Source: Cyclobacterium xiamenense
GTDB lineage: Bacteria > Bacteroidota > Bacteroidia > Cytophagales > Cyclobacteriaceae
Direction: 5' to 3'
DNA length: 64,000 nucleotides
Assembly: GCF_009467825.1 (NCBI RefSeq)
Contig: NZ_WIOK01000010.1
Coordinates: 1-64,000 of the forward strand
In this document: one piece after another, positions 28,033 through 57,520 of the stretch
Layout: every line of letters begins with the position of its first letter
Numbering within the stretch: position 1 is the first letter of the stretch
The notes under the pieces: generated by a model
Told to the model about the DNA's origin: nothing
Seen by the model: the letters and a program-made list of their open reading frames with translations, nothing else
The model's database searches: none
Program-made: the position numbers and the translations under genes

Positions 28033-28608
28033 TTACTCATAAAGTTCGACGATCATGTCGATTTCCACCGCGATATTGTTGGGTAGTGAACTCATGCCGA
28101 TTGCGGCCCGCGCATGCTTGCCCTTTTCGCCAAAAATCTCTACCATCAGGTCTGAAAAACCGTTGATTACCTGGGAGTGTTGCTTAAATGACGGATCGGC
28201 ATTGACCATCCCTTGCGCGCGTACGATATTCTTCACGCGGTTGAGGTCGCCTATTTCGGCCTTTAGAGAAGAAAGCAGGGAGATACCGGTAAACCGCGCA
28301 GCTTCGATCCCTTCTTCCAATTCCAATTCCGAGCCCAATTTGCCGATTACCTGACTGCCATCGGGTCGATCCGGTCCATGTCCGGCCAGGTACACCAAAT
28401 TCCCAACGGTCTTGGCCTTGAGGTAATTGGCCGTGGGCGGGTTGGGCAGGATCAGCTCGATGCCCAGATCGCGAAGGCGTTGTTCGGCGTCCAGGCCGTC
28501 ACTCTTCTGTTGCGTAGGAGCGGGGTCTTCCTGTACCTCAGAGGTCGGTTGCGTGCAGGAAAAGAGTGTCAGGATTGACAATGACAGGAATAATGCATAG
28601 TTTTTCAT
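28033..28608 (-). CDS. RidA-family (YjgF) lipoprotein, module A
   Basis: A 191-aa RidA/YjgF-family protein, whose members hydrolyse reactive 2-aminoacrylate-type enamines/imines to 2-oxo acids and ammonia. Unusually it has a lipoprotein signal (SILTLFSCTQ), so it should act in the periplasm. The domain covers residues ~45-191: NLVYLAGHGP, the active-site arginine in KHARAAIGMSSLP and the C-terminal VEIDMIVEL. It is the last gene of module A (two amidohydrolases, SelA-like PLP enzyme, RidA), 69 bp after the PLP gene. The copy at 54926-55456 is closely related (both share FGEKGKHAR and SLPNNIAVEI), pointing to module duplication. Confidence 0.9.
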   Translation of the reverse strand: MKNYALFLSLSILTLFSCTQPTSEVQEDPAPTQQKSDGLDAEQRLRDLGIELILPNPPTANYLKAKTVGNLVYLAGHGPDRPDGSQVIGKLGSELELEEGIEAARFTGISLLSSLKAEIGDLNRVKNIVRAQGMVNADPSFKQHSQVINGFSDLMVEIFGEKGKHARAAIGMSSLPNNIAVEIDMIVELYE

Positions 28609-28677
28609 ACAATTACTGGTTTTAAAGGTGGTGAAATCCGGTCATTTTGGGTGGATGGTTCGTTTCTTTCATGCTGC

Positions 28678-30291
28678 TTACGTGGCCAGTGGAGGGCCAG
28701 ACGGAACCATGATTCGTTCTCTTCTTGGCTGCGTTCCGGACTTTTTGGCGTTGAAACGAGCGGTTAGGTACTCTCCCATGAATACTTCTCCCTCCAGGCT
28801 TTCTCCCTGAAGCTTGCCGGTAAACATGAAGACCACCGAGTCGCCCGGTTTTCGGAAATTGCTTCGAAGGATAACCTTGTCTCCTTCGATACTTCCGTAG
28901 ATGTCCTGCTTGGCGAAATCACTCATGTGTGTGCCGTTTAGCCAGTTCTCGTCCTGACTCAAGACCCACTGATGGGTACTTTTGCTGCTAAAGAAAGTCA
29001 TTTCCACTTCCCAACTGCCACTGAGATCTCCAACCGGCGGGATCAGCGACTTGTCCGGAGCTTTTCGTTTTTCCGATAGTGTTTGGTGAATCCGGTCGGC
29101 GACTACTTTGGCTTCTCCCGCCTGCATTTGGTTGGGGCTGATGGTGATGGAGGTAAGCCCGTCCTGATTACGACTTCCCACGGCTATGCGTGGAGGGGTG
29201 CGACCAAAGCGCTCGGCCACTTCTTCGCCCGTTATCCGCAGCTGCTCCGGATCCCACAAGATTTGCAGCATGGGAGCTCGGTTGTTTAGGTCGAAGGGCT
29301 GGTTGATCTGAAAGCTGACCCCCTTGACCTTGGTTGCGCGGTCGGCGATCTGATTGAGCCATTCCATCCAGGTATCCCATTCTTTTTCGTGGTCACGGGT
29401 GGTCCAGGCTTCCACAGCGGCAAGCATGCCCAGCATTTCTTCCTTGCCCACTTTATTGTCTCGCCCTGGCCCATGATGAGGGGAGCTGGCCTGCCAGGCA
29501 GAAAGCATCAGGTCTTTTCTTCCCAATAACAGTCCGGCACACTGCGGTCCGCAAATGGCCTTTCCTCCGCTGTATGCCACCATGGTAGCGCCTCTTTCAA
29601 AGTGAACACAGGGAATCGTCAGATTTTCGGCAGCGGCATCCATTAGTATGGGTACCTCTTGGTCTTTGGCGATTCGGGCAATGTTCTCAAGTGACAACGG
29701 CTGTCCGGTAGCCGCTCCTCTCCCCGAGATCAGGTAGATCATTGCCGTTTTGGGATTAATGGCACGTTCCAACTCCTCGGGGCTATTGACTTCCACGATG
29801 GTCACTCCGACGTTTCGCACCGCGTGGTCGTAGACGTTACGCGAGTGTCGGGGAACGATCACTTCGGTTTTCTCCATTCCGGAGAGATCCGGGATACGCA
29901 GGAGTTTTTCCGGATTACCTCCTGTGACGCAGGCTGCGGTGGCGTGTTTCATGGCTGCTGCACAGCCAGCGGTGATGATGCCAAATTCCGCCTTGGTGAT
30001 TTCCGCCAGCCTTTCTCCGATTGCAAAGGCCAATTCATCGTATTGTACAAAGTTTTTTCCCGCCGCCGCCATGGCCTGATGCACCTCGGGTCGCTCGATG
30101 GAGCCACCGATGATGGTAAAGGTGCCCCGGCAGTTGATGATGGGCTCCACACCCAGGGAGCGGTAAATGTTTTCGTCAAGGGCCAGTGGGCCGATAGGCT
30201 TTTTTCGCTTTTCCAGTAAGGGCGACATGCCCATTAGGCTTCCACCTACAGGCAGTATGGCCAGGTTTTTAATCATTTCTCGTCTATCCAT
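28678..30291 (-). CDS. Tat-exported SelA-like PLP enzyme with C-terminal beta domain, module A
   Basis: A 537-aa fold-type I PLP enzyme of the SelA/DgaE-like group, whose characterised relatives are ammonia lyases acting on D-amino or amino-sugar acids. The N-terminus DRREMIKNLAILPVGGS looks like a twin-arginine signal, so the holoenzyme should be exported folded. The PLP lysine is K244 in SGGKAICGPQ; the ring aspartate is in PILMDAAAEN (about residue 218). Residues ~430-537 are an extra beta-rich domain (LSGSWEVEMTFF ... LQGESLEGEVFMGEY) that the paralogue at 53646-54869 lacks. The first 19 bp overlap the end of the upstream amidohydrolase gene, indicating coupling. The substrate is unknown. 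Confidence 0.88.
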   Translation of the reverse strand: MDRREMIKNLAILPVGGSLMGMSPLLEKRKKPIGPLALDENIYRSLGVEPIINCRGTFTIIGGSIERPEVHQAMAAAGKNFVQYDELAFAIGERLAEITKAEFGIITAGCAAAMKHATAACVTGGNPEKLLRIPDLSGMEKTEVIVPRHSRNVYDHAVRNVGVTIVEVNSPEELERAINPKTAMIYLISGRGAATGQPLSLENIARIAKDQEVPILMDAAAENLTIPCVHFERGATMVAYSGGKAICGPQCAGLLLGRKDLMLSAWQASSPHHGPGRDNKVGKEEMLGMLAAVEAWTTRDHEKEWDTWMEWLNQIADRATKVKGVSFQINQPFDLNNRAPMLQILWDPEQLRITGEEVAERFGRTPPRIAVGSRNQDGLTSITISPNQMQAGEAKVVADRIHQTLSEKRKAPDKSLIPPVGDLSGSWEVEMTFFSSKSTHQWVLSQDENWLNGTHMSDFAKQDIYGSIEGDKVILRSNFRKPGDSVVFMFTGKLQGESLEGEVFMGEYLTARFNAKKSGTQPRRERIMVPSGPPLAT

Positions 30292-31520
30292 AACATGTTT
30301 TCGTTATACGTTTTTGCTGTCAGACCATTCAGGTCGTACACGACCTTGCCACCTTTCATGGTCAGCTCTGCTTCCAATTTGTATTTTCCGGCAATCCGGT
30401 TTCCGGCAGCGTCAACGAAGCCGAATTCGCCTTCGTGCAGTTTCAGTAGGGCCAAATCCGCTACCGCTCCTTCGCTCAAATGCCCCAGGTCTGGTCGTTG
30501 TATGGCTTGGGCTGCCTGCCAGGAAGCCCGTTTGATGACTTCTTCTGTTTCCATACCCATGGCAATGAATTTGGACATCACATTCAGGATATTTTTCATT
30601 CCCGCGTTCATGCTAAACCGGTGCAGGTCTGTGCCGAAAGTATGGGGGACAAGGCCTTGCCGCAGGGCAGGAATGGCCTGACTAAACCAGAACCCGGCTC
30701 CGCCATGCCCCACATCGAAGATGATTCCCCGCTCGTAGGCCGTTTGTACGAAGGGTCGCAAGCGGCCTTTTTCATCGACGATGGGCATGCGCTCGTCAAT
30801 CTCCTCAAAACTGTGGGTCAGGATATCTCCTGGCCGCATTTTTTCGAGCTGCTTGGCCAGGGTGTACTGCGGTAAATGGCATTCCACCAATAGCGGTTTT
30901 TTGGCCGTTTCTGCAGCCAGCAGCGCCCGGTCAAAGGGTAACCATTCCTCACCTGTGTAGTGGCCTATTTTTATGCCAACCAAATGATCCGGATACTTCT
31001 GGATCATTTTCACAGCCATTTCGGCATCCATGTCTTCCAGGTTTTCCTGGCTGGGATTGCCGCTCATGCCCGAACCGGCAATGTTTAAGAAGGCCAATAC
31101 CCGGGTTTGGGAGGCGTCAATGACGTTTTTTTTGAAGGTCTCAAAGTTTCTCCACCCGGAAGTACCGGCATCCACTACCGTGGTGACACCCGAGCGAAAC
31201 GAAAAGTCATCCGGCGAAACGCTGGAAAAACCATCCGCAAAGGTACGCGCCTTACTGCCTACAAATACGTGGGTGTGCGTATCGATGAGGCCTGGACATA
31301 GAATCAGCCCGGAAGCATCAATCACTTTCTTTGCCCGATCGGAACCGATGGAGGGGGCAACCTGCGCAATTTTTCCGTTCGCTATCCCCAGATCCAGGGT
31401 ATCCTGCCGGGCATTTCTGGCATCGATCAGGTACGCGTTCTGGATCAATAGGTCAAATTCCTGACCGAAAAGGGGGATACCAAGGGTCATCCCAAGGAAA
31501 AACAGAACGCAATGTTTCAT
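30273..31520 (-). CDS. Secreted amidohydrolase/deacetylase (COG3964-like), module A copy 2
   Basis: A 415-aa amidohydrolase-superfamily TIM barrel with a Sec signal (cleavage after LFGQ). Metal-site motifs: PGLIDTHTHVFVG (HxH, about residues 75-87), VGIKIGHYTGEEW (carboxylated-lysine strand), ILTHSFEE (His of strand 6) and TDLHRFSMN (Asp of strand 8), plus FDVGHGGAGFWF. Characterised COG3964 members deacetylate N- or O-acetylated acids and were often misnamed dihydroorotases. The strand-5 position reads LVECHLPQ where I expect VHIG-type sequence. It follows the first amidohydrolase by 10 bp and overlaps the PLP enzyme gene. Confidence 0.88.
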   Translation of the reverse strand: MKHCVLFFLGMTLGIPLFGQEFDLLIQNAYLIDARNARQDTLDLGIANGKIAQVAPSIGSDRAKKVIDASGLILCPGLIDTHTHVFVGSKARTFADGFSSVSPDDFSFRSGVTTVVDAGTSGWRNFETFKKNVIDASQTRVLAFLNIAGSGMSGNPSQENLEDMDAEMAVKMIQKYPDHLVGIKIGHYTGEEWLPFDRALLAAETAKKPLLVECHLPQYTLAKQLEKMRPGDILTHSFEEIDERMPIVDEKGRLRPFVQTAYERGIIFDVGHGGAGFWFSQAIPALRQGLVPHTFGTDLHRFSMNAGMKNILNVMSKFIAMGMETEEVIKRASWQAAQAIQRPDLGHLSEGAVADLALLKLHEGEFGFVDAAGNRIAGKYKLEAELTMKGGKVVYDLNGLTAKTYNENMLWIDEK

Positions 31521-31530
31521 TCGTAGTGGG

Positions 31531-32820
31531 TTATCGGTTGCTAAGTTCGGATTCCCAGTAGGGTGCGCTCATACCATTTAGATCCCAGACAATTCTGCCT
31601 GCCCGCAAGGTGAGTTCGGTTTCCAATCGCTTATCTCCATCGATTTTTGTTCGCCGGATGTCCTGAAAGCCAAAGTTTCCTTCCACCAGGCGAAATACCG
31701 CAATGTCTGCTTCGGACCCTACGTCCAGGTTTCCCAAATCCTTTCGATTGATTACCTGTGCGGGCATCCAGGTGGCTCGTTCGATCACCTCTTCCAGGCT
31801 CAGTCCCATATTCATAAATTTGGACAATAGGTTGGCCATGTCTTTAAAGCCTCCATTCATGCTGTCTTTGTGCAGGTCTGAACTGATCACATCCGGCAAA
31901 AAGCCCTGCTCGATGGCGGGAATGGCTTGCCGAAAAGAAAAGGCACCGCCTCCATGGCCCACATCGAAGCGAATTCCTTTCTCCTGCGCCTGAAGAATAA
32001 AGGGTTTTAGTTTTAGCTGCTCATCTACTATGGTCTCCCGGTTGGCGGGTCCGTAGGAAAAGGTATGGGTAAAAATATCGCCCGGCCGCAGGTGTTCCAT
32101 AAATAAGGATTCAATGGAATTAGGGGGTTGGTGCTCGCCAAAATCAACCATCACAGGTACCTGGGCCAGCTTTCCCGCTTCTACGGCGATGTCTACCTGG
32201 GTAAAATCTCCCCAGTAATGAGCGGATTTAATACCGACCAGGATGTCCGGATACAAGCGGCGAATCATGTTCGCCGTCATGGTCGGATTCATGTCCATCA
32301 CATCTTGCTCTTCATACCTTCCGTACATGCCGGTGCCAACGATGTTTAAAAAAGCCAGTACCCGGGTTTGCGCCCGGTCGATGGTTTGTTTTTTGAACTG
32401 GCGGAAATTTCGCCATCCGGAAGACCCGGCATCGACCACGGTGGTAACGCCGGAGCGGAAGGTGAACCCATCTGGCGGAAGGCTGGTTAGACCATTGGCA
32501 ATGTAGGAATCCGTATCGGCCCCGTGAAATACGTGTACGTGCATGTCTACCAGCCCCGGCGTAAGGTACAGTCCTTTAATGTCCAGGACTTTTTTTGCTG
32601 CACTGGCAGGAATGTTTTTTTCGACTTTTACGATCGTCTTGCCAGTGATGCCCAGGTCCATGGGTTCGTTAATCCCATTTTTGGGATCCAGTACGTGACC
32701 ACCTTTTAGCAGCAGGTCAATGTCCTGTGCAAGGACCGATGTCGATAAAAACAGCAGCAATACGACAAGCACTTGCAGGCTGCGGCGCAGGGTATCGATA
32801 GAGAAGAGGAGTGCGTTCAA
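31531..32820 (-). CDS. Secreted amidohydrolase/deacetylase (COG3964-like), module A copy 1
   Basis: A 429-aa paralogue of the next gene, first of module A. The best start is a TTG at 32820, since no later ATG keeps the signal peptide (LQVLVVLLLFLSTSVLAQ). Motifs: TPGLVDMHVHVFHG (HxH), LVGIKSAHYWGDF (lysine strand), MVDFGEHQPP at strand 5 (Asp rather than His), IFTHTFSYG and SSDLHKDSMNGG. FDVGHGGGAFSF is intact. The gap to the following gene is 10 bp. Its upstream region faces the divergent Nramp-like transporter gene (194 bp between them), so a shared regulatory region is likely. Confidence 0.87.
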   Translation of the reverse strand: MNALLFSIDTLRRSLQVLVVLLLFLSTSVLAQDIDLLLKGGHVLDPKNGINEPMDLGITGKTIVKVEKNIPASAAKKVLDIKGLYLTPGLVDMHVHVFHGADTDSYIANGLTSLPPDGFTFRSGVTTVVDAGSSGWRNFRQFKKQTIDRAQTRVLAFLNIVGTGMYGRYEEQDVMDMNPTMTANMIRRLYPDILVGIKSAHYWGDFTQVDIAVEAGKLAQVPVMVDFGEHQPPNSIESLFMEHLRPGDIFTHTFSYGPANRETIVDEQLKLKPFILQAQEKGIRFDVGHGGGAFSFRQAIPAIEQGFLPDVISSDLHKDSMNGGFKDMANLLSKFMNMGLSLEEVIERATWMPAQVINRKDLGNLDVGSEADIAVFRLVEGNFGFQDIRRTKIDGDKRLETELTLRAGRIVWDLNGMSAPYWESELSNR

Positions 32821-34301: not shown

Positions 34302-34311
34302 TTCCCAGTTT

Positions 34312-36057
34312 CTACGGAGTATCGGAGCGCAGCGCGGCTACCTCTTCGGGCAGGACTGCACCGGCCTGATTGCCGAAATTCTCCCGGATAAAGGTGAGTA
34401 CACTTGCAATTTGTGTATCGTCGAGGAATCCATGGGCTGGCATGACGTTGTCGTATCGTTCGCCGTTCACTTCTATTTCCCCATCCAATCCCTGAAGTAC
34501 GATCCGAATCAGGCGTTCTTTGTCACCCGAGACCCAGTCGGTCTGGTGGAGTCCAGGTATTCTTCCGCTGGCTCCTTTTCCATCCCGCTGGTGACAGGGT
34601 GCGCAATAGGTGGAGTAGACTTTATTTCCGGTTGGCTGTTGCCCTCGGTCGAGGTTGTCTTTTTCCGGATCGGGTCTGCGTACATTTGGCAGTAGTTTTT
34701 GCTCCTCCATGGCGGCGAGTTGCGCATCCCCAAAATTGGTTTTATCTCCGGTGTACAGAATGCGCCAGATTCGTCCCTTGTTGGAATCCGAAATGTAGAG
34801 CGAGCCGTCCGGGCCTTCGGCGAGTCCCATGGGGCGAAATTCGGCATCACTTACGTTGACGATGGGGTCGGTTCCTGCAAATCCATTGGCGAAAACTTCC
34901 CATTCCCCGGTGGCTTGTCCGTTTTCAAAAGGGACAAAGGCCACAAAATAGCCGGACTGTGGATAGGGGGCTCTGTTGGTGGACCCGTGGAAGGCGACAA
35001 AAGCCCCTCCCTTGTACCGTTCCGGAAACTGATCGCCTTTATAAAACAGCAAATCGTTGGGAGCCCAGTGACCCGGAAAACCCATCACCGGATCGTCCAT
35101 CCCTTCACACCTCCCGGTTATTTTTCCATCCCCCCCGTATTCGGGAGCCAGCACTTTTTTCCCTTGTATATGGTCGTAATAGCAATAGGGCCAGCCGTAA
35201 TCTCCCCCTTCTCGTACCCGGATAAATTCCTCCGACGGCAAAATTGCGCTCTCCCAGGGGGTAAATGTTTCGGGATACAACAGGTGCAGGTTGTCCCGGC
35301 CATGCATGAGCAGGTACAGTTCTTCGTCTTCGGGATGGTAATCCATGGCTACTACGCTGCGAATACCGGTCGCATACAATTCACCATCCTTTTGGGTCAT
35401 ACCCAGTTTGTCTTTCGGAAACTTCCATACCCCGCCGTGTTCGATTAGTTCGGGGCAGGGGTCCAGGCCCTCGGAGCCCGGTATGCCCCCCGGTTTATTC
35501 ACCAGGTCCTGGCAGGCATTGGAGGGGCTGCCGAAGGGAACGTATAAGTTGCCTTCGTTGTCAAAGGACATCGGTTTGGTGATGTGCCAGTGAATCCCGT
35601 GTTCGTGGTCATCGGTCAGCACCACCTCCATGGGGCTATCCGGAACCAGTTTTCCAGGCTCAAGTCGGCTGCGGTACACCACCCTTGCGGCGCTGTAGTA
35701 GAGGTAGCCCTCGTGAATTCGCATGCCGTTGGCCAGGCTCCCTTCGTCTTTGTATGCACCGAAATAGCGGATGATATCTGCTTTTCCGTCTCCGGTGGTA
35801 TCCCGAAGTGCCACGTTGCTACCGGTCTCTTTTGCATACCGCAGTTTTACATAAATGTCCCCATTATCATTGACAGCAAGATGCCTCCCCCGCCCGATGC
35901 TATCTACTACGACCAGGGCGCCAAATCCTTCCGGAAGCGTAAGTCCGCCATTGTCCGCATCTGCGATTGGAAGCGGGGCCTGGCAGGAGGAAACACAAAA
36001 AGTAAGGAGTGCCAGGCTGAAGAAAAAACAATAACAACTGGAAAGTGAGTGATTCAT
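34312..36057 (-). CDS. Sorbosone dehydrogenase-like lipoprotein fused to cytochrome c, copy A
   Basis: A 581-aa exported protein with a lipoprotein signal (LLTFCVSSCQ). Residues ~30-440 form a beta-propeller of the PQQ-type sugar dehydrogenase (glucose/sorbosone dehydrogenase) group, with phrases such as LPEGFGALVVVDSIGRGRHL, the GIRSVVAMDYHPEDEE strand, and the ASLYISDSNKG-like PDGSLYISDSNKGRIWRI. A C-terminal cytochrome c domain (about 485-565) has the heme motif CAPCH and the axial methionine in NVMPAHGF. It probably oxidises a sugar or aldehyde in the periplasm and passes electrons to the respiratory chain. A second copy lies at 57560-59329. Whether it binds PQQ is not shown. Confidence 0.9.
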   Translation of the reverse strand: MNHSLSSCYCFFFSLALLTFCVSSCQAPLPIADADNGGLTLPEGFGALVVVDSIGRGRHLAVNDNGDIYVKLRYAKETGSNVALRDTTGDGKADIIRYFGAYKDEGSLANGMRIHEGYLYYSAARVVYRSRLEPGKLVPDSPMEVVLTDDHEHGIHWHITKPMSFDNEGNLYVPFGSPSNACQDLVNKPGGIPGSEGLDPCPELIEHGGVWKFPKDKLGMTQKDGELYATGIRSVVAMDYHPEDEELYLLMHGRDNLHLLYPETFTPWESAILPSEEFIRVREGGDYGWPYCYYDHIQGKKVLAPEYGGDGKITGRCEGMDDPVMGFPGHWAPNDLLFYKGDQFPERYKGGAFVAFHGSTNRAPYPQSGYFVAFVPFENGQATGEWEVFANGFAGTDPIVNVSDAEFRPMGLAEGPDGSLYISDSNKGRIWRILYTGDKTNFGDAQLAAMEEQKLLPNVRRPDPEKDNLDRGQQPTGNKVYSTYCAPCHQRDGKGASGRIPGLHQTDWVSGDKERLIRIVLQGLDGEIEVNGERYDNVMPAHGFLDDTQIASVLTFIRENFGNQAGAVLPEEVAALRSDTP

Positions 36058-36542: not shown

Positions 36543-36561
36543 GACGGTTACAGTTAAACTA

Positions 36562-36607: not shown

Positions 36608-39600
36608 ATGAAAAGAAGTTTACTAGTTTTATTTCTGGCCTTGTTTGCCTTTCAAGGCATGGCTCAGGAACGAACGGTCACGGGAACCGTGACCGATGCA
36701 GATGCGGACGCCCCCTTGCCGGGAGTCAGCATATTGATCAAAGGGACCAATACAGGTACCATCACGGATATTGATGGGCAATACAGCATCAGTGTACCTG
36801 GTTCATCGGCCACGCTGGTCTTTTCTTATTTGGGATACGGGCAACAGGAACGAGCGGTTGGAAACAACAGCGAGATCAATGTTTCTCTGGCAGCAGAAGA
36901 GTCAGCGCTATCCGAGGTGGTGGTGACGGCATTTGGTCTGGAAAGAGAAAAGAAAGCGCTTACCTACACGGTGCAGGACGTTAAAACAGAGGAGCTGTCT
37001 CAAGCTCGGGAATTGAACGTAATGAACTCACTTTCCGGGAAGGTAGCAGGTTTGTCCATCAACCGATCCGGTAGTGGTGTAGGATCTCCTACACGTGTTA
37101 TTCTAAGAGGAAATCGGTCGATAACCGGTAACAGCCAGCCGCTCTACATTGTGGACGGTGTGCCTGCCGCCGGGATCGAAAATCTGAATCCAGACGATAT
37201 TGAGAGCATCAACGTACTGAAAGGACCAAACGCAGCTGCCTTGTACGGTAGCCGTGCCAACAACGGCGCGATTGTGGTAAACACCAAACGTGGACGTGAA
37301 GGTGGGTTTCAAGTCAATGTGAACACTTCGTACATGTTCGACACGCCCATATTGCTTACTAATTTCCAAAACGAATTTGGACAAGGAAGTGGAGGCGTAT
37401 ACTCGCCAGCGTCGGAGTTTTCCTGGGGACCCAGAATGGACGGATCTTCCGTGCCGTTTTGGTCGCCTGACCCCAATAGCGGAATTGATAACTATCCGTT
37501 CTCTCCACAGCCAAATAACGTGAGTGATTTCTACCAAACCGGTCACAACTTTGCTACCACGCTAACCGTCAGTGGAGGAAATGAAAAGAATCAGACGTAT
37601 TTTTCCTACACCTTTAATGATGCTGCCGGCGTTGTTCCGGGAAATGCGCTCGGAAGGCATAGTGTTAACTTACGACTTACAAACAAGCTGACGGATCGGT
37701 TGACCTTGGATTCGAAGATAAACTATATCAAACAAGACATCGATAATCAGTTAACCCAGGGTGAAAATTACTCCAACCCCACCCGGCATATTCTACGACT
37801 CCCGCGAAATATTCGCACCGAAGACATTTCCAACTTCGAATTCGTAAACGAGGCAGGACTGTTGCGACAAAACTATTTCAATCCAGGCTCCAACGGTGGT
37901 GCCAACCCTTATTGGGCGGCAAATCGCAATTTGCGTAGAAATACCCTGGATAGAATCATCGCATTTACTTCGTTGAACTATGAACTGGCAGAGGGCCTGA
38001 ACGTGCTTGCTCGGGCAGCCTTAGATCGATCTACTGGAGATAGCGAGGAAAAGTTGTGGGCAGATTCGTACATCATCGCTCAGGGCGGAAGGTACTCTGT
38101 AGGCTTTTCTGAGAGCATGGAGATCAACACAGATTTCTTGATTACCTATGAGAAGTCACTCAATCAGGATTGGTATTTCAACGTCAATGCTGGAGGAAAC
38201 GCGCGAATCAACCGAAATTCCGGGCTTAATTCCAACACCGGTCCTCAGTTAACGATTCCCAACTTCTTTGCGTTGAGCAATACGCAGCAAGTGCTTTCTA
38301 CGCACAACGTAGGTGCTCCAAGGAATGTGAATTCCCTGTATGGTTTTGGCCAGTTGGCGTGGAAAAACTCCATCTTTTTGGATATTACTGCCAGAAATGA
38401 CTGGTCATCCACCTTACCTCGTGCCAACTGGTCCTTCTTCTATCCCTCTGTTGGTTTGAACGCGGTCCTTTCTGACCTGATAGTATTCCCAGAGTGGTTC
38501 ACCTTTGCTAAAGTAAGAGGTTCCTTCGCAGAAGTGGGTAACGATACAAGCCCTTATCAATTGCAGCGTACGGCTTCTCTGGCTGCCGGTGGATTGGGTG
38601 GATACCTGTCGTTGAGCACCACGCTTCCCAACGAGAACCTGTTGCCTGAAACCACACAGTCGATAGAGATTGGGGCTGATATGCGTTTCCTCGACAACCG
38701 AATCGGGCTGGACTTCACCTACTACAGGACGAATTCCTTTAATCAGCTGTTTACCGTTGCGCTGCCGGTAGGTTCTGGGGCTTCCCAGTTTTTCACCAAC
38801 GGAGGAAACGTACAGAATACCGGTGTAGAGACCGTCCTGACATTGACTCCGGTTCGCAAATCGGATTTCAACTGGGATATCTCGATGAATTTTGCCAGAA
38901 ACATCCCGTTGGTGGTAGAGATCAATGATGACCGTCCAAGCGTTCAAATCGGAGGTGATTTCCTTCGTCGGTATCGTGTAGAAGAAGGGCGACCTTTTGG
39001 TGAAGTGTATTCCAGAGGCTACCTCAGGGATGAGCAGGGTAGGGTTATTGTTGGTGCGAATGGCGTTCCAAGAACGACCCCAGGATTTACGGTTAATGTA
39101 GCCAACTACAATCCAAGATGGCTGGGAGGAATTCAAAATTCATTTACCTACAAAAACTTCCGGGCTAACTTTACGATTGACTTCCGGGAAGGTGGAAGCA
39201 TTGCCTCACTTACCAATGCGATCATCTATGCAGACGGTGTGACCGAGGAGACGCTTGAAGGAAGAGAAGGAGGTTTGATATTTGGTGAGAATTTCATGAC
39301 TCACGAGACTGCAGTGCTTGAATCGGGAGAACCCAACAATATTCCTATCACTGCAGAGCAGTTCTGGGTAAACATGGGCGGTCGAAATGCCCCTATCGGC
39401 GAGGTTTTCTCTTATTCTGCCACCAACATACGGATGAGAGAGGCCGTAATCGGTTATACCATTCCTTCGAGCAAACTGGGTAATCTGCCCATTCGTTCGC
39501 TGGGTATTAACTTTGTTGCCCGAAACTTGTTCTTCTTCTTGAACGAGGCTGGGAACATTGATCCCGATGTGACCGTTGGAACCGGAGCTGCTGCAGAAGG

Positions 39601-39664: not shown

Positions 39665-39683
39665 AAACATTAATTTCAAGACT

Positions 39684-41312: not shown

Positions 41313-41341
41313 TCAAGCGAGTAAAAGACGTATACTAGTTA

Positions 41342-41372
41342 AAAAAAGTGCCGCAACTCGTGGCACTTTTTT
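41342..41372 (+). terminator. Terminator or attenuator after susD
   Basis: AAAAAAGTGCC (41342-41352) and GGCACTTTTTT (41362-41372) form an 11-bp stem with a 9-nt loop ending in six T. It lies 25 bp before the FG-GAP lipoprotein gene, so it may partly uncouple that gene from susCD. Confidence 0.88.
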
Positions 41373-41396
41373 ACTTTCCATTCGACGAGACAGATT

Positions 41397-47392: not shown

Positions 47393-47679
47393 GATTGAAT
47401 ATGGGGATTGATTTTTGTGTACGCAATAAAACCTTGGAATATATACCAATTAATTTTTTTCTCCAAATGCTTCCCGGACAAGAATTCAAGCAGTCCTGTA
47501 AGCGGAAGCTATTTCGGCTAAAAAGATTGCAGATCCCAATAGGGTCCCCGTACGCGCGTGAAATTCTCGTATTTCCTACCATTTTTCCTTAATTTTTGTG
47601 TACTTTCGTTTGGAATCCATAGGCGCCAGTAGCTGGCTAGCCAGGATGTTCCCTGCAAACCCAATTGTTTGATTTATTT

Positions 47680-48624
47680 ATGGTTATGTTCCGATCAGTT
47701 ACGAATAGTGTCCGCTGGTACTCCCTTTTAATTTCGGTAGCCGTAGTGGCCTGTAGTCCAAACAAAAACGTAGAAGAAACGACCGTCATGGAAGAAAAAG
47801 AAGTTGTCTACCAAAGCAAGCCTTTTACCACTGGAAATGAGTTCACTTCCGGTATTGAAGGGCCGGCAGTGGATAGGGAAGGAAACCTGTATGTGGTTAA
47901 TTTTGAAAAGGGAGGTACCATAGGTAAGGTTACTCCGGAGGGCAAGGTTTCCTTATTTGTGACGCTTCCCGAGGGAAGCACCGGTAACGGTATCCGTTTT
48001 ACCTCCAAAGGTGAGATGCTCATAGCAGATTACACGGGTCATAACGTGCTCCGGGTGGATATGGCTACGCAGGAGATATCCGTCTATGCACACCATGAAG
48101 GATTAAATCAGCCCAACGATCTGGCTATTATGGACAACGACATTGTATTCGCCAGTGATCCCAATTGGAAAGAGAGCACCGGTCAAATCTGGCGGGTAGG
48201 GCTGGATGGAAAATTTGTCCTGCTGGAATCCGGTATGGGGACTACCAATGGCATCGAGGTAAGCCCGGATAACCGTACCCTGTACGTCAATGAATCCGTT
48301 CAGCGTACGGTTTGGGCATACGATTTAAGCGAGGCGGGAGAGCTTTCAAACAAGCGGCTGATTCATCAGTTTGATGATTTTGGTATGGACGGCATGCGGG
48401 TAGATACCGACGGAAACCTGTACGTTACCCGACACGGGAAAGGAACGGTGGCTAAATTATCGCCCGACGGAGACTTGTTGGAGGAGATTACTGTTTCGGG
48501 TAAAAAGCCCTCCAATATCGCATTTGGTGGGCCCGATGGAAAGACAGCTTACGTGACCCTGCAAGACAATGGAAATATTGACTGGTTCCGGGTAGAAAAG
48601 CCCGGAAGGTCATTTGGTAGGTAG
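47680..48624 (+). CDS. SMP-30/gluconolactonase-like lipoprotein
   Basis: A six-bladed beta-propeller of the SMP-30/gluconolactonase/LRE type, 314 aa from the ATG at 47680 (47686 also possible), with a lipoprotein signal ending in VVACSPN. Typical strands: IEGPAVDREGNLYVVNFEKG (first metal glutamate), GNGIRFTSKGEMLIADYTG, LNQPNDLAIMDNDIVFASDP (Asn/Asp metal ligands), NGIEVSPDNRTLYVNES and FGMDGMRVDTDGNLYVTRHG. Such enzymes hydrolyse sugar lactones with a divalent metal; acting in the periplasm it would fit next to the cytochrome-linked sugar dehydrogenases, whose product would be a lactone. Confidence 0.9.
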   Translation: MVMFRSVTNSVRWYSLLISVAVVACSPNKNVEETTVMEEKEVVYQSKPFTTGNEFTSGIEGPAVDREGNLYVVNFEKGGTIGKVTPEGKVSLFVTLPEGSTGNGIRFTSKGEMLIADYTGHNVLRVDMATQEISVYAHHEGLNQPNDLAIMDNDIVFASDPNWKESTGQIWRVGLDGKFVLLESGMGTTNGIEVSPDNRTLYVNESVQRTVWAYDLSEAGELSNKRLIHQFDDFGMDGMRVDTDGNLYVTRHGKGTVAKLSPDGDLLEEITVSGKKPSNIAFGGPDGKTAYVTLQDNGNIDWFRVEKPGRSFGR

Positions 48625-48642: not shown

Positions 48643-48660
48643 ACAATTAACCCGACACAA

Positions 48661-52366: not shown

Positions 52367-52388
52367 AAAAAGACAAGCAAAAACGCGT

Positions 52389-53642
52389 CTACTGGATCAG
52401 GTCTTGTGCAGCCCGTCCATTAAAGTCATACACCACCTGGCCTCCTTTGATGGTCATTTCGCATTCCAGTCGCTGATTCGTTGCCAATTTCTGTCCGGTA
52501 CGGTCCCAGACGCCAAATTCACCTTCCCGAATGTGTAGCAAGGCAATGTCCGCAATGGCGCCTTCCGAAAGGTGACCCAGTTCGGTCCGCTTGATTACTT
52601 TGGCAGGTTCCCAGGTACTTGCTTCAATTACATGGGGTAATTCCATGCCCATGGCCATAAATGTGGTCATGACGTTTAGCATATCTTTCATCGCGGCATT
52701 CATACTGCCGGTATGAAGATCCGTACTAATCGTATTGGGATAGAGCCCGGCAGCAAGGGCAGGAATGGCTTGTTTGAACTCAAAGCTGGCTCCACCGTAT
52801 CCTACGTCGAAAACGATGCCTCTTTTCTGTGCCTCCAGTACAAAGGGTTCGAATTGGCGCGTTTCCCGGTTCACTACCGTCTCCCGCGAGCCATTTAATT
52901 CGGCATAGGTGTGGGTGTAGATATCGCCCGGTCTCAATCGTTCGAAAAAGAGTTCACGAATGGAAAGCGGTTCAAATTGGGTAGAACCGCCGAAGTCCAC
53001 AATCACGGGTATGTCAGCAATCCTTCCCGCTTCCACGGCCCGGTCAATGGGGATCCAATCCCGGCTGCCGTAATGAGCGACTTTAAAGCCAACCACGTGT
53101 TGTCGGTTTTGTTGGGCTACCATGGCACTTAGCTTGGCATCCATGTCCCCGGTATTTTGTTCCCAGGCACCGCCCCGCATTCCTTCCCCCACGATGTTCA
53201 TGAAAGCAAGCACCCGAGTTTTGCTGGGTTCAATGATGTTCTTTTTAAAGGTGTCGAAGTTTTTCCATCCGGGTCCTCCGCAATCGACGATGGTGGTGAC
53301 GCCGACGCGAAAGGTAAATCCATCCGGTGGTACCGCAAGCAGCCCATCACTCAGGTAGTGGTTGGGCTGGGTGCCGTGAAAAACGTGGCCATGCATGTCG
53401 ATCAGTCCGGGGGTAACCACCAAACCTTCAGCCGGGATCACTTTTTTGGCATCCTTTGCCGGTATGGATGCGGCCACTTTGGCTACTTTTCCATCCGTGA
53501 TGGCGACGTCCATCAGGCCATCAACGTTGTTTTTCGGATCGATTAATCGGCCTCCTTTGATAAGAAGGTCATACGTTTGGGCGGAAACCAGGCTACTGAT
53601 AAGCATCAGTATCAGCAGCATGCCAGGGATTCTTACTTTCAT
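52389..53642 (-). CDS. Secreted amidohydrolase/deacetylase (COG3964-like), module B copy 2
   Basis: A 417-aa secreted amidohydrolase with a Sec signal (cleavage after LVSA). Motifs: TPGLIDMHGHVFHG (HxH), VVGFKVAHYGSRDW (lysine strand), VIVDFGGSTQ at strand 5 (Asp), IYTHTYAELNG (His) and ISTDLHTGSMNAAMKD (Asp). The conserved FDVGHGG loop is FDVGYGGASFEF here, a His-to-Tyr change not found in the other three paralogues of the window. It is the last gene of module B, 3 bp after the SelA-like gene, and ends at the bidirectional terminator. Confidence 0.88.
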   Translation of the reverse strand: MKVRIPGMLLILMLISSLVSAQTYDLLIKGGRLIDPKNNVDGLMDVAITDGKVAKVAASIPAKDAKKVIPAEGLVVTPGLIDMHGHVFHGTQPNHYLSDGLLAVPPDGFTFRVGVTTIVDCGGPGWKNFDTFKKNIIEPSKTRVLAFMNIVGEGMRGGAWEQNTGDMDAKLSAMVAQQNRQHVVGFKVAHYGSRDWIPIDRAVEAGRIADIPVIVDFGGSTQFEPLSIRELFFERLRPGDIYTHTYAELNGSRETVVNRETRQFEPFVLEAQKRGIVFDVGYGGASFEFKQAIPALAAGLYPNTISTDLHTGSMNAAMKDMLNVMTTFMAMGMELPHVIEASTWEPAKVIKRTELGHLSEGAIADIALLHIREGEFGVWDRTGQKLATNQRLECEMTIKGGQVVYDFNGRAAQDLIQ

Positions 53643-53645
53643 GGG

Positions 53646-54869
53646 TTACACTTTAGCGATTTGTAATTCTTCGGCAATTCGTTTTGCCACAATTTTTTCC
53701 TCTTTGGGTCGGAGCATAAACACGGTCATGCTAATCGCATGATCGCCTCCACTAATCACTTCAATGGATGGTTGCCCCATCCGAAGTTTCTCCTGCATTT
53801 GTTCCCGGGTAAGCTTTATCGTAGCGGGGTCCCAGGAAATTTTTAGGTAGGGCGTATGGTTGGCAATGGGAGGAACAGAAACTTCGGTGGTGACGCCACT
53901 GATTTTTTCTACTTCCGCGGCAACATAAGCCACTTTGTCTTCCCATTCCTTCCACTCTTTCGCATGGTCTTTTTTGACGTATTCGTCCAGTGCGACGTAC
54001 ATCCCTAGAATTTCTTCTTTGTTTACTTTCATTCCACGGCCGATGGTGCCTCCACGAGGGGGAGCACTTAGCCGGGCGGCCTCAATGAGGTCTTTTCTGC
54101 CCATCAGTATGCCGGCGCTTTGGGGACCCTTGATGGCCTTTCCACCCGAAATACAGACCAGGTCAAATCCCATGTCGTTGTACTTCCAGAGGTTTTCGAC
54201 TGGAGGCACATCGGCAGCCATGTCAATCATGGTCGGAATTCCGTGTTTTTTACCGAGTGCAACCCACTCTTCGTGGGTTATTTTACCGGCCGGGGCCTGG
54301 TAATTCAAAAACCACAGCATTGCCGTTTTGTCGTTAACTGCACGGTCCACGTCGGCGGCCGTCTCTACCTCTACCACCGAAACTCCGGTGTTGGTAATCG
54401 CATGTACGTACCCCACGTTATGGGATTTTTGAACGATGACTTCGGACTTCATCCCCTCCAGGTTGGGAAGCTGTCGGATCTTATCCCGATCTTTTCCCGT
54501 CAAAACTCCGGCGGTTCCCAAAACCATGGCAGACCAGCAGCCAGCCGTGACGGTAGCAGCCTCTGCGTGGCAGATGGCGGCGATCTTTTCTCCTACTTTA
54601 TCCTGAACCTCGTCCAGCATGATGTAGTGGTCGGAAGAGAAATTAATCGCTTCCATGACTTCTTTGGGCATCAGAGAAGCGGTCATTGCGGTATAGGTCC
54701 CGGCTGCATTAATAAAGCTACGGAGGCCGAGTTCCTTGACCAGATCTCGTTTTGGGGCCGCAGAGGTTTCCGCAGCCAGTGCACCGGATAGCGGGATTCC
54801 ACTACCCATTACTCCTCCAATCAAGGGAAGTGTTCCCAGTCTTTTTAATAATTTTCTTCTACTTAACAT
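53646..54869 (-). CDS. Tat-exported SelA-like PLP enzyme, module B
   Basis: A 407-aa fold-type I PLP enzyme of the SelA/DgaE-like group. LSRRKLLKRLGTLPLIGG is a good twin-arginine signal, with a cleavage site near LAAE. The PLP lysine is K244 in SGGKAIKGPQSAGILMGRKD, and the ring aspartate lies in PTMIDMAADVPP (about residue 216). The core matches its paralogue at 28678-30291 but without the C-terminal beta domain. It stands between the RidA gene (56 bp) and the last amidohydrolase (3 bp). An ammonia-lyase type elimination giving an enamine that RidA would clear is the best-supported guess; the substrate is unknown. Confidence 0.88.
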   Translation of the reverse strand: MLSRRKLLKRLGTLPLIGGVMGSGIPLSGALAAETSAAPKRDLVKELGLRSFINAAGTYTAMTASLMPKEVMEAINFSSDHYIMLDEVQDKVGEKIAAICHAEAATVTAGCWSAMVLGTAGVLTGKDRDKIRQLPNLEGMKSEVIVQKSHNVGYVHAITNTGVSVVEVETAADVDRAVNDKTAMLWFLNYQAPAGKITHEEWVALGKKHGIPTMIDMAADVPPVENLWKYNDMGFDLVCISGGKAIKGPQSAGILMGRKDLIEAARLSAPPRGGTIGRGMKVNKEEILGMYVALDEYVKKDHAKEWKEWEDKVAYVAAEVEKISGVTTEVSVPPIANHTPYLKISWDPATIKLTREQMQEKLRMGQPSIEVISGGDHAISMTVFMLRPKEEKIVAKRIAEELQIAKV

Positions 54870-54925
54870 TTGCTTTGTCTTTTTATACGATCAGGGCCGG
54901 TAAATGGCAGGCTCTGCTGAAGGCC

Positions 54926-55456
54926 TTAGTCTTCTATTTCTACAATCATTTCAATTTCCACCGCAATATTATTGGGTAGGGAACCCATGCCAACCGCGGA
55001 GCGGGCATGTTTTCCTTTCTCTCCAAAAACTTCCACCATAAAGTCCGAAAACCCGTTCATGACGCGGGGCTGTTGGGTAAAATCCGTACTTGCATTTACC
55101 ATACCGAGGACTTTTACAATGCGTTTTACTTTATTCAAATCCCCAATTTCAGCTTTCAAGGTAGAAAGCAGGGCAATGCCCGTGAGGCGTGCCGCTTCCT
55201 GGCCTTCCGTTATGGTTAGCTCAGTACCTACTTTTCCCTGAACGCTGGTGCCATCGCCCCGGCTAGGACCGTGTCCGGAGAGAAACACCAAATTGCCGGT
55301 ACGGACAGCTCGGACAAAGTTGGCCGTTGGAGGGGCAGGTTCCCTAAGGGTGATGCCCATGGCTTTTAATTTTTGCTCCGGGTCTTGTTGGGAATAGCCC
55401 ATCACGGAGAGGGTCATAAGTCCCAGTAATAGCATGTAGTGTAGTGGTTTTTGCAT
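54926..55456 (-). CDS. Exported RidA-family protein, module B
   Basis: A 176-aa RidA/YjgF protein with a Sec signal peptide (LLLGLMTLSVMGYSQQ), so periplasmic. The core is NLVFLSGHGPSRGDG, an EAARLTGIALLSTLKAEIGD helix, the active-site arginine in GKHARSAVGMGSLP and the terminal VEIEMIVEI. It is strongly alike to the module A RidA lipoprotein in sequence and operon position next to a SelA-like gene. Gaps: 60 bp from the upstream amidohydrolase and 56 bp to the PLP gene. Confidence 0.9.
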   Translation of the reverse strand: MQKPLHYMLLLGLMTLSVMGYSQQDPEQKLKAMGITLREPAPPTANFVRAVRTGNLVFLSGHGPSRGDGTSVQGKVGTELTITEGQEAARLTGIALLSTLKAEIGDLNKVKRIVKVLGMVNASTDFTQQPRVMNGFSDFMVEVFGEKGKHARSAVGMGSLPNNIAVEIEMIVEIED

Positions 55457-55516
55457 GATACTAGTTATTTAAGTGTTGGCGTTCGTGAAAAGGGTGGTTA
55501 GCTTTAGTTCAGTACC

Positions 55517-56767
55517 TCAGTCGTTCCAGGCTTTGCTCCCTAGCCCATTAAGGTCCCAGACAATGGCCCCTGCCCGTAAGGTCAGTTCTGCTTCGAGCTT
55601 CTGCGTCCCGGTGGCAGCAGCTCCCGAGGAATCCAGGAATCCATACGCTCCGGTGTGAAGGGAAAAGACAGCGATATCGGCCTCGGCACCTTCGGAGAGG
55701 TGGCCCAGTTCTTCCCGTTGGATGACCTGCGCAGGTTTCCAAGTAGAGGCAGCAATGGCCTCTTGGAGGCTCATTCCCAAGTTCATCATTTTGGATACCA
55801 CATTTAGCATATCTTTCATGCCGCCATTCATACTTCCGGTATGCAGATCTGTGCTGATGGTGTTGGGCCAAAATCCCTGCTGCGTCGCTGGCACGGCGAT
55901 GTCGTAGTAAAAGGAGCCACCACCATGCCCTACATCAAAGATCAATCCCTTTTCCCGAGCTTCTTTCCAATGCGGGCGGACGGTGCCATTTTCATCCAAA
56001 ACCGCTTCTTTCGGCCCATGTCCGGAGTAATTGCGCCCATACATGTGTGTGAGTATATCGCCCGGTTGGAGGATTTCCAGAAATAACGTGGATAAAGGCA
56101 GTGCGGGGTCGGCTCCGCCCAGGTCTACCATGACTGGAATACCTGCGGACCTGCCGGCTTCTGCGGCTTTGTGATAGGGAGCCCATTCGTGTCCCCTGAA
56201 GTGGGCGATTTTCACACCGATTATTTCTGGAAATTGGCGGGCTACCATCGCGGTCATCTTTGGATCCATGTCGCTTTGGTCCTGTTCGTTGGGGACCACC
56301 CCGCTCATGCCATCTCCCACGATATTGATAAAGGCGAGGACCCTTGTTCGGGATCGATCGATTACCTGTTCCTTAAACGTGCGGAAATTCTTCCATCCCG
56401 CTCCACCTGCATCTGCCACGGTGGTCACTCCGGCCCGGAAGGTAAACCCGTCGGGAGGAAGTGCGGAATAACTATTGCTCAGGTAGCGGTGAGGAACCGT
56501 TCCAAAGAAGTGGTGGCCATGAATGTCTATCAAACCCGGACTGACAATCATGCCTGTGGCATCGATCGTTTTCTTTGCTGCGCTGGCATCGATATCTTTT
56601 GCTACTCGGGCGATTTTTTTGTCCTTGATGGCGATGTCTAACACTTCATCCCGCTGATTTTTCGGGTCAATTACATGGCCATTTCTGATCAAAATATCAA
56701 ACTCCTGCGCCTGGAGAACCAACAGGCTGCAGAGAAAAATCGCGAAAGATAGTGGGAATCTCTTCAT
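55517..56767 (-). CDS. Secreted amidohydrolase/deacetylase (COG3964-like), module B copy 1
   Basis: A 416-aa secreted amidohydrolase with a Sec signal (cleavage after LQAQ). Motifs: SPGLIDIHGHHFFG (HxH), IIGVKIAHFRGHEW (lysine strand), VMVDLGGADP at strand 5 (Asp), ILTHMYGRNYSG (His) and ISTDLHTGSMNGGMKD (Asp); FDVGHGGGSFYYD is intact. It starts 3 bp after the CBM9-like gene and precedes RidA. Its protein is closer to the 52389 copy (shared DLHTGSMN) than to the module A pair, which suggests two rounds of duplication. Confidence 0.88.
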   Translation of the reverse strand: MKRFPLSFAIFLCSLLVLQAQEFDILIRNGHVIDPKNQRDEVLDIAIKDKKIARVAKDIDASAAKKTIDATGMIVSPGLIDIHGHHFFGTVPHRYLSNSYSALPPDGFTFRAGVTTVADAGGAGWKNFRTFKEQVIDRSRTRVLAFINIVGDGMSGVVPNEQDQSDMDPKMTAMVARQFPEIIGVKIAHFRGHEWAPYHKAAEAGRSAGIPVMVDLGGADPALPLSTLFLEILQPGDILTHMYGRNYSGHGPKEAVLDENGTVRPHWKEAREKGLIFDVGHGGGSFYYDIAVPATQQGFWPNTISTDLHTGSMNGGMKDMLNVVSKMMNLGMSLQEAIAASTWKPAQVIQREELGHLSEGAEADIAVFSLHTGAYGFLDSSGAAATGTQKLEAELTLRAGAIVWDLNGLGSKAWND

Positions 56768-56770
56768 GGC

Positions 56771-57520
56771 TTATTCAAAGATAAGGTTTCCAAAATAGTG
56801 CGGCAGGTGAAAATCCGGCCGGTGATTGATGACTTCGTTCCAGGTGAAGTAGTGCGGATTACTGGTTTTGCTGCCTGTTTTGTAAAAATTGGCTTTCCAG
56901 CGCACACCGGGACCTGGCGGCGTGATGTCACGGTAGGACTTGAGAATTTTTAGCGGCAGTTTGAATTCGATGTACCAGGTGACAGGTTCCTGGATTTCCG
57001 GGTCGATCTTTCCCGAGAGCGAATGCGCGATTTCGATCTTTTCGATCTTCTCTGCATCCACGACCTCGTATTCCTTTCGGGGAGCAGTCACGTAATGAAA
57101 CAGCGGTACGCCCGAGCAGTTGATTTCCAGGTTAAAGTACTCGAGGGGGGCATTGCTGTCCGGCGCGAAGAAAAATTCTACGCAGGAATCCGTCGAAACC
57201 GGACCGTTGATTTCCTCCACCAGGCAGCGAACGTACTGGTCTTCCACCTTAAATATCCCGTAAATATGACGTTTGTCGTAGCGTAATTTTACCTGGGTGG
57301 TCGGAGAGAACGGCGGGTTTTCACCCATATGCAAGGCAATTTCCGCTGCCGGTACTTCTTGCCAAACTTCTTTTTCCCAATTTCCGTCAATGGGAATCGG
57401 TTTTTTGACAGGTTTAACGAGGTATTCGGAAGGAGCGGGTCCGGGTTGGAACATGGGTTTTGGATTGGGATTTTGAATGGGAGCAAAAGCCAAAAGAAAC
57501 AGGAAGTATATCGGGTTCAT
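56771..57520 (-). CDS. Carbohydrate-binding family 9-like protein
   Basis: A 249-aa exported protein with a short Sec signal (residues 1-17). It matches the CBM9-like beta-sandwich fold: KPIPIDGNWEKEVWQEVP at the start, VKLRYDKRHIYGIFKVED, STDSCVEFFFAPDSN and a final TSNPHYFTWNEVINHRPDFHLPHYFG (in two parts). Such proteins bind sugars or glycan ends; here it probably captures a substrate for the enzymes of module B. It is 39 bp after the cytochrome-fused dehydrogenase and 3 bp before an amidohydrolase, so it is part of the operon. Confidence 0.87.
   Translation of the reverse strand: MNPIYFLFLLAFAPIQNPNPKPMFQPGPAPSEYLVKPVKKPIPIDGNWEKEVWQEVPAAEIALHMGENPPFSPTTQVKLRYDKRHIYGIFKVEDQYVRCLVEEINGPVSTDSCVEFFFAPDSNAPLEYFNLEINCSGVPLFHYVTAPRKEYEVVDAEKIEKIEIAHSLSGKIDPEIQEPVTWYIEFKLPLKILKSYRDITPPGPGVRWKANFYKTGSKTSNPHYFTWNEVINHRPDFHLPHYFGNLIFE

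Follow-up and report, generated by a model that had tools for sequence, protein, structure and literature searches.

The 64,000-nucleotide stretch of Cyclobacterium xiamenense DNA analysed here (contig NZ_WIOK01000010.1; the window) carries two operons, each of which combines two COG3964-type amidohydrolases (AHs), a DgaE/SelA-like pyridoxal 5'-phosphate (PLP) enzyme and a Rid protein (Table 1), all eight open reading frames (ORFs) lying where the original prediction, made from the sequence alone, had placed them and belonging to the families it had named. That AH, PLP enzyme and Rid protein form a real unit is strongly supported by their linkage and co-occurrence in other genomes, and we consider it moderately probable that an N-acetylated amino-sugar acid is processed by a periplasmic, non-phosphorylating route encoded here. 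PLP lyases and their Rid proteins are, to our knowledge, generally regarded as cytoplasmic. No description of an exported Rid protein or of this cluster was found in the open-access literature, in a search that left subscription journals mostly uncovered and aimed at exported Rid proteins directly to a small extent only.

Co-occurrence was assessed in a single draw of 296 genomes from the Bacteroidota phylum, in which relatives of PLP2 (E ≤ 1e-20), RID3 (E ≤ 1e-20) and AH_D (E ≤ 1e-40) were each detected in seven genomes, the same seven for all three, spanning six genera; if relatedness is ignored, the chance of two independent sets of seven being identical is approximately 3e-14. RID3 is a third Rid protein of the window, with an N-terminus of the twin-arginine translocation (Tat) type, which the original prediction had overlooked, and in the pairs compared a RID3 gene starts 0.9 to 6.7 kb from the start of a PLP gene. 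In this sample RID3 is specific to the module, unlike the RID1/RID2-type proteins, which were ruled out as module markers since RID2 relatives (E ≤ 1e-10) are present in 162 of the 296 genomes, at most seven of which also encode the PLP enzyme. The kinase DgoK (2-keto-3-deoxygalactonokinase) was detected in three of the seven PLP-bearing genomes versus 12 of the 289 others (Fisher p 0.003). No cytosolic DgaE was available as a control within the phylum, as a TIGR01437 search of the sample returned the same seven genomes only.

Scanning a genome collection with 14 PLP queries yielded 79 loci, taken from the best 80 of at least 561 matches and derived mostly from Bacteroidota, with two labelled Acidobacteria. 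Neighbouring families were scored within up to 10 kb; contig ends cut many of the loci, 53 of which are at least 20 kb long, and one (L103) yielded no PLP ORF. An AH is encoded in 62 of the 79 loci and an AH together with a Rid protein in 45, while the long loci hold an AH in 43 cases and a Rid protein in 36, all 36 of the latter also holding an AH. Further partners in the 79 loci are GSDH-cytochrome fusions (39), RID3 (38), SusC (33), FecR (24), SusD (23), extracytoplasmic function sigma factors (21), CBM9 proteins (20), RID1/2-type proteins (18), GSDH alone (17), BASS transporters (17), SMP-30 (14), RraA (12), sulfatases (10), a separate cytochrome c (8), DgoK (5), KDPG aldolase (5) and galactonate-type major facilitator superfamily (MFS) transporters (4). 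The order CBM9-GSDHcyt-AH-SBF-RraA-RID3-PLP-RID12 recurs in four Flavobacteriaceae loci (L073, L074, L082 and L104), L033 and L034 read sigma-FecR-SusC-SusD-PLP-AH-DgoK-KDPG aldolase-MFS-PLP, and as many as five AH ORFs were counted in one locus (L040). Such neighbours could supply sugar oxidation, lactone opening, keto-acid uptake, a kinase and an aldolase, which fits a periplasmic amino-sugar-acid pathway.

Export signals were called by a rule-based script and by eye, and the counts omit ORFs at contig edges (one PLP enzyme, two AHs, one FecR and one SusD). In the window, twin-arginine N-termini are carried by PLP1, PLP2 and RID3, while the script gave a Sec call for RID2 and three AHs; RID1, also called Sec, has a lipobox-like LFSC by eye, and for AH_A the call of the script was Tat, its hydrophobic N-terminus being read as Sec by eye. 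All eight operon products thus have the export-type N-termini that had been predicted for them, that of PLP1 being weak. Among the 79 loci the caller assigned Tat-type N-termini to 91 of 94 PLP enzymes and 40 of 41 RID3 proteins, and Sec, lipoprotein or Tat-type N-termini to 85/87 AHs, 14/18 RID1/2-type proteins, 12/12 RraA, 37/40 GSDH-cytochromes, 11/14 SMP-30 and 17/20 CBM9 proteins, as against 0/22 sigma factors, 1/27 FecR, 0/5 DgoK, 0/5 KDPG aldolases and 0/6 NagB-like proteins, so that the signal predictions for PLP and Rid proteins, whose failure would have refuted the original prediction, were upheld. In 96 of the 98 PLP enzymes two arginines align at the same positions, signal-less relatives from Alphaproteobacteria and Firmicutes start near the domain with no N-terminal extension, and TatC is encoded in the genome from which the window derives. 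Since Tat substrates receive their cofactor in the cytoplasm ahead of export, this would be a sensible route for a PLP enzyme, and the N-termini described here would place the enzymes in the periplasm.

The catalytic residues are well conserved. In PLP2 numbering, the catalytic Lys244 as well as Asp216, Arg278 and Lys281 are kept in 98 of 98 PLP enzymes, while the position of DgaE His163 is occupied by His in none of them (two gaps) and that of His162 in six. According to the accessible part of the DgaE report, His163 protonates the enamine, leading to release of the imine, and the H163A variant is still fully active as a lyase (PMC9529869). In 69 of the 98 exported enzymes a His is found a few residues downstream of the His163 site and could be an alternative proton donor. 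The idea that the loss of His163 explains the Rid partner, or the export, was weakened, because the enzymes of Rhizobium, Aminobacter and Sagittula retain both DgaE histidines yet have a RidA gene close by, and some signal-less enzymes (Haladaptatus, Natronosalvus, Mesorhizobium and Sinorhizobium medicae) also lack them. DgaE residues R301 and R332, both modelled at the phosphate of its substrate, are jointly Arg or Lys in 0/98 PLP enzymes (position 346 lies outside the aligned piece), a loss which fits a non-phosphorylated substrate.

Among the AHs, in a count that omits those of 350 residues or fewer (6 of 89), the metal-site residues (HxH, Lys, beta6 His and Asp) are kept in 88 of 88, the exception being the beta5 His, which is replaced in all 88 (Asp in 86, Glu in two); the AH of Granulicella also has Asp, whereas the signal-less AHs of Aminobacter, Sagittula and Clostridioides have His. 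The equivalents of Rid Arg105 and Glu120 are present in 42/42 RID3-type and 20/20 RID1/2-type proteins, and imine hydrolysis has been predicted or shown for the Rid groups that carry Arg105, as stated in the accessible part of PMC4433059. The residues which the predicted chain of deacylation, elimination and Rid hydrolysis would need are therefore kept, with the exception of this one AH metal ligand.

All four window AHs exceed the NF006689 cut-off of 371 (410.5 to 441 bits). The PLP enzymes score below the cut-off of TIGR01437 (PLP1 165.7, PLP2 179.7 bits) and that of NF047797 (155.9 and 152.3 bits; cut-off 600), and the Rid proteins below that of TIGR00004 (RID1 25.7, RID3 60.4 and RID2 32.5 bits; cut-off 106.25), Pfam gathering scores being reached. 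By E-value, DgaE (7lc0) is the nearest match to the predicted structure of PLP1 (pLDDT 82), with a TM of 0.82 by target length, followed by Cap15 (8t7j) and SelA. DgaE is also the top sequence match of the PLP enzyme by E-value, Cap15 being in the same sequence family. For the GSDHcyt1 model (pLDDT 84) the top four PDB matches are AA12-type pyranose dehydrogenases dependent on pyrroloquinoline quinone (PQQ; TM 0.73-0.77 by target length), and PQQ sugar dehydrogenases are next closest.

Based on these findings we infer a route, of which every reaction, the substrate and the localisation are to be read as proposals. The substrate would enter the periplasm via SusC/SusD, a PQQ-type dehydrogenase-cytochrome would oxidise the sugar at C1, and SMP-30 would open the lactone to give an N-acetyl-2-amino-2-deoxyaldonate. 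A Sec-exported COG3964-type AH would then take off acetate, the Tat-exported DgaE-like PLP enzyme would eliminate water and free an enamine/imine, and the Tat-exported RID3, with RID1/RID2, would hydrolyse this to 2-keto-3-deoxyaldonate and ammonia. The keto acid may be imported by a BASS or galactonate-type transporter, phosphorylated by DgoK and split by KDPG aldolase inside the cell or, in loci having RraA, be split outside by that protein. The gene context points best to an amino-sugar substrate, a reading which we hold to be reasonably probable, and it narrows the D-amino or amino-sugar acids proposed originally as substrates towards the latter.

Among known pathways, Dga and Ong, both cytoplasmic, come closest. 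The exported PLP enzymes share with DgaE the fold family and the catalytic Lys and Asp, and a Clostridioides relative of DgaE lies beside a COG3964-type AH and a KDGP aldolase. DgaE itself is fed by a phosphotransferase system (PTS) and has no export signal, whereas the exported enzymes fall far below its cut-offs and lack His163, mostly His162, and the R301/R332 pair; in the Dga pathway the family acts on a phosphorylated substrate, according to the accessible part of PMC9529869. In the oxidative chitin pathway (Ong) of Pseudoalteromonas, the amidohydrolase OngB and the PLP deaminase OngC, both predicted to be cytoplasmic, turn N-acetylglucosaminate into 2-keto-3-deoxygluconate (KDG), and deletion of any of OngB, OngC or OngD (RidA) abolished growth on N-acetylglucosaminate, the role of OngD being called unknown by the authors (accessible part of PMC9537276). 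The order of reactions is alike as proposed here, but Ong, as far as this part of the report describes it, is cytoplasmic and employs other enzyme families, OngB being a subtype V deacetylase with a Cys/His/His site, whereas the window AHs have HxH-Lys sites and belong to NF006689 and the window PLP enzymes are DgaE-like with export-type N-termini. The COG3964 amidohydrolases of known structure (PDB 2OGJ and 2ICS) have five of the six metal-site residues in common with the exported AHs, the beta5 residue being His in the former and Asp/Glu in the latter. The window dehydrogenase resembles the AA12 PQQ-dependent pyranose dehydrogenases in the predicted fold of its dehydrogenase domain, but it is bacterial and fused to a cytochrome c, and its PQQ binding is putative.

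The triad seems to exist in two compartments: a signal-less form lies beside importers, while all three proteins bear export-type N-termini in Bacteroidota and in an acidobacterium. In a survey of 13 stretches among 241 plasmid records with a PLP relative, plasmids of Aminobacter and Sagittula carry AH, RidA and PLP genes in one stretch, the same three families as the window module, beside ATP-binding cassette (ABC) importers and with no signals by eye; here, unlike in the exported form, the AH retains its beta5 His and the PLP enzyme the His and Arg residues of DgaE. On two Rhizobium plasmids an ABC importer accompanies RidA and PLP genes, with no AH in the stretch, and both the rhizobial and the Aminobacter importers are annotated only generically. 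In Clostridioides the DgaE relative and AH lie with PTS, sugar kinase and KDGP aldolase genes, with no Rid gene in the stretch shown; in Haladaptatus a Rid gene lies two genes from the PLP relative; and no Rid gene was seen in the opened stretches around the PLP relatives of Mesorhizobium, Natronosalvus, Sinorhizobium medicae, Rhizobium jaguaris and Streptomyces. A Granulicella (Acidobacteriota) plasmid has a row of RraA, a Tat-type PLP enzyme, a Tat-type RidA, a second Tat-type PLP enzyme, an AH with a Sec-like N-terminus, a lactonase and a BBE-domain protein (N-termini read by eye), together with a large carboxypeptidase-regulatory-like protein that is probably of the TonB type. BBE/AA7 enzymes can oxidise sugars at C1, and the BBE-domain protein suggests that another oxidase family may fill this step in Granulicella.

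Several findings weigh against the proposed route. The caller is loose, marking membrane proteins as Sec and calling 280 of the 584 other ORFs in the loci exported, 36 of them Tat, and PLP1 shows no clear cleavage site by eye, its signal being the weakest of the set. The expectation that the genes stay together held in the seven shared genomes and in most long loci, but 10 of the 53 hold a PLP gene with none of nine partner families within 10 kb: seven Dyadobacter/Larkinella loci in one clade (L070, L075, L079, L083, L086, L105 and L106), one from Pedobacter (L049) and two from Lunatimonas, beside sulfatases (L062 and L063); at least one of these genomes, Dyadobacter endophyticus, has the full cluster elsewhere (L052, as against L079). 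Relatives of RraA, DgoK, KDPG aldolase and the galactonate-type MFS transporter, and likewise of NagB-like proteins, were not found by tblastn within the window; in favour of the route, DgoK, KDPG aldolase and a GntP permease do sit together on contig C23 of its genome. Since GSDHcyt, SMP-30 and RraA are found in only 39, 14 and 12 of the 79 loci, C1 oxidation with lactone opening and the final uptake and breakdown of the keto acid are less secure than deacetylation, elimination and Rid hydrolysis. R301 and R332 are both kept in the rhizobial relatives beside ABC importers, so that the pair is no clean phosphate marker and its loss was set aside as proof of a non-phosphorylated substrate, and no signal is visible on the BBE protein of Granulicella in its annotated form. 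A more ambitious version appears doubtful, namely that some Bacteroidota and Acidobacteriota would perform the full route from C1 oxidation to 2-keto-3-deoxyaldonate in the periplasm, that the PLP lyase would have lost its enamine-quenching His and would use a Tat-co-exported Rid protein, that export would shield cytoplasmic PLP enzymes from the enamine, and that the deacetylase would have a carboxylate-substituted metal site unlike the cytosolic relatives compared; it is lowered by the signal-less haloarchaeal and Mesorhizobium relatives which also lack the His and by the rhizobial ones which keep it beside RidA.

It is also conceivable, if rather unlikely, that the substrates of the same exported chain are not sugar acids but N-acyl- or beta-hydroxy-D-amino acids, derived for instance from peptides or peptidoglycan. 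The acids on which COG3964 enzymes act are alpha-substituted and D-configured, the rhizobial RidA-PLP pairs and the Aminobacter triad adjoin importers of generic annotation, and the five AH ORFs of L040 suggest several substrates; however, DgoK, KDPG aldolase, galactonate-type MFS transporters, GSDH, lactonase and CBM9 recur beside the triad, and the Clostridioides pair keeps company with sugar genes. The PLP protein might instead be an O2-dependent oxidase or oxygenase like Cap15 rather than an ammonia lyase, with Rid hydrolysing an imine made by oxidation. Cap15, an enzyme that depends on both O2 and PLP, does fit the PLP1 model about as well as DgaE does (TM 0.85-0.87 by target length, slightly better than DgaE), a further point against the proposed route, and the exported clade lacks His163, but DgaE ranks first by E-value in the sequence search and, narrowly, in the fold search (1.1e-27 vs 4.1e-27), the DgoK and KDPG aldolase neighbours fit a 3-deoxy-2-keto acid product, and oxidase chemistry does not follow from the absence of His163, given the lyase activity that the accessible part of PMC9529869 gives for H163A; we regard this alternative as improbable.

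A non-catabolic role, in which the proteins would act on surface glycans, altering or protecting them, or would deal with reactive imines of the periplasm, exported Rid proteins serving as general damage control, is consistent with the wide distribution of RID2 relatives and with the 19 best-scoring of their loci (L167-L185), all of which have export-type N-termini by eye and 14 of which come from genomes lacking the PLP enzyme, many weaker matches outside this check being possibly cytosolic. As the Tat-type RID3 tracks the PLP enzyme exactly in the sample, and SusCD, sigma/FecR and catabolic kinases and aldolases in the same rows indicate nutrient use, such a role seems highly improbable. Least probable of all is that the N-termini are uncleaved anchors holding PLP and RID3 on the cytoplasmic side, with the chain itself cytoplasmic: the missing cleavage site of PLP1 would agree with this, but the fixed arginine pair, the want of an extension in signal-less relatives, the Sec-type N-termini of the partner AHs and the repetition of the N-terminal pattern in Granulicella speak for export.

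With regard to layout, operon 1 runs AH_A, AH_B, PLP1, RID1 and operon 2 runs GSDHcyt2, CBM9, AH_C, RID2, PLP2, AH_D, with gaps of −19 to 69 bp inside the two operons (intergenic distances of 3 to 60 bp in operon 2). Operon 2 had been taken to span 52389-56767 and in fact runs on through the CBM9 protein and GSDHcyt2; of the transporters, SusCD and dehydrogenases said to separate the two copies, GSDHcyt2 lies outside them. The module had been described as duplicated, and in a recent sense this was ruled out, as PLP1 and PLP2 are only 35% identical and fall in separate clades of a tree with a single DgaE outgroup (six long PLP1-type proteins with an extra beta domain and 92 others, PLP2-type) that co-occur in other loci (L033, L035, L036, L043, L060 and G126). 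The window is best read from these comparisons as a cluster of ancient paralogues with no fresh copy.

Table 1. Features of the Cyclobacterium xiamenense window.
Feature	Position	Strand	Description
AH_A, operon 1	31531..32820	-	COG3964-type amidohydrolase, predicted exported deacetylase; NF006689 441 bits; beta5 His->Asp
AH_B, operon 1	30273..31520	-	COG3964-type amidohydrolase; NF006689 410.5 bits; beta5 His->Glu; Sec-type N-terminus
PLP1, operon 1	28678..30291	-	DgaE/SelA-like PLP enzyme; Tat-like N-terminus; C-terminal beta domain of ~100 residues
RID1, operon 1	28033..28608	-	PF14588 Rid protein, 63.2 bits; lipoprotein-like export; Arg105/Glu120 equivalents kept
GSDHcyt2, operon 2	57560..59338	-	Architecture as GSDHcyt1; first gene of operon 2; order matched in L028
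CBM9_2-like protein, operon 2	56771..57520	-	PF16011 119.6 bits
AH_C, operon 2	55517..56767	-	COG3964-type amidohydrolase; export-type N-terminus; NF006689 415.7 bits
RID2, operon 2	54926..55456	-	PF14588 Rid protein; Sec-type N-terminus
PLP2, operon 2	53646..54869	-	DgaE/SelA-like PLP enzyme; Tat-type N-terminus
AH_D, operon 2	52389..53642	-	COG3964-type amidohydrolase; export-type N-terminus; NF006689 432.8 bits
RID3	46931..47449	-	Tat-type Rid protein; PF01042 66.8 bits; real start probably ATG at 47392
SBF2	45793..46887	-	BASS-family, PanS-like, predicted 2-oxo-acid uptake; TIGR00841 249.3 and PanS model 229.4 bits, both below cut-off
SBF1	44662..45789	-	Second BASS-family transporter; PF01758 131.3 bits
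SMP-30/gluconolactonase-type lipoprotein	47665..48624	+	PF08450 162.2 bits
GSDHcyt1	34312..36057	-	Sugar dehydrogenase propeller fused to cytochrome c; PF07995 and PF00034
SusC-type outer-membrane transporter	36608..39664	+	PF07715/PF13715; possible substrate entry
SusD-type lipoprotein	39576..41312	+	PF12741 432.3 bits

Elsewhere in the window, operon 1 is bordered by two adjoining ORFs (25778-27939), by eye an EgtD-type methyltransferase and an EgtB-type protein, and SusC, SusD and a large FG-GAP/ASPIC-UnbV protein occupy 36608-44696; family searches identified the FG-GAP/UnbV protein and an Nramp transporter within the stretch. The SusC/SusD pair may belong to the substrate, since L027 has relatives at 55 and 59% ahead of the same module. 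The genome (5.78 Mb) encodes five AHs, three PLP enzymes and eight PF01042 Rid proteins, of which four, two and three, respectively, lie in the window, a clustering beyond what chance would give. The third PLP copy, PLP2-type (contig C19, L001 9258-10487), lies among sulfatases, a sulfatase-modifying enzyme and a GH10 protein, with no AH or Rid gene in the 19 kb seen; the fifth AH, exported-type with a beta5 Asp (C40, L137 8343-9617), has no PLP or Rid gene in the 19 kb seen; and a RID2-type protein is immediately followed by a BASS transporter, at 53% to SBF2 (C16, L138 8568-10424), with no PLP or AH gene in the stretch seen. On C13 (L139 4702-8745) a signal-less RID2-like protein has as neighbours a transporter, a dipeptidase and a protein that by eye resembles the D-threonine aldolase/D-serine deaminase type, and the group may be a cytosolic cluster for D-amino acids. 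In genome G249 (C1:1096139-1096738; L019 10059-10739) a PLP2 relative of just 226 residues, shortened or broken, lies near a complete copy.

If the proposed reading is correct, this linked and co-inherited set of Tat- and Sec-signalled proteins would constitute a periplasmic PLP/Rid pathway, in which the chemistry of reactive intermediates takes place in an unexpected compartment, and the PLP, Rid and AH subfamilies concerned would gain a testable class of substrate. It would also offer a system in which to ask whether Rid is an obligate pathway partner, as the essential nature of OngD suggests, or an agent of general damage control.

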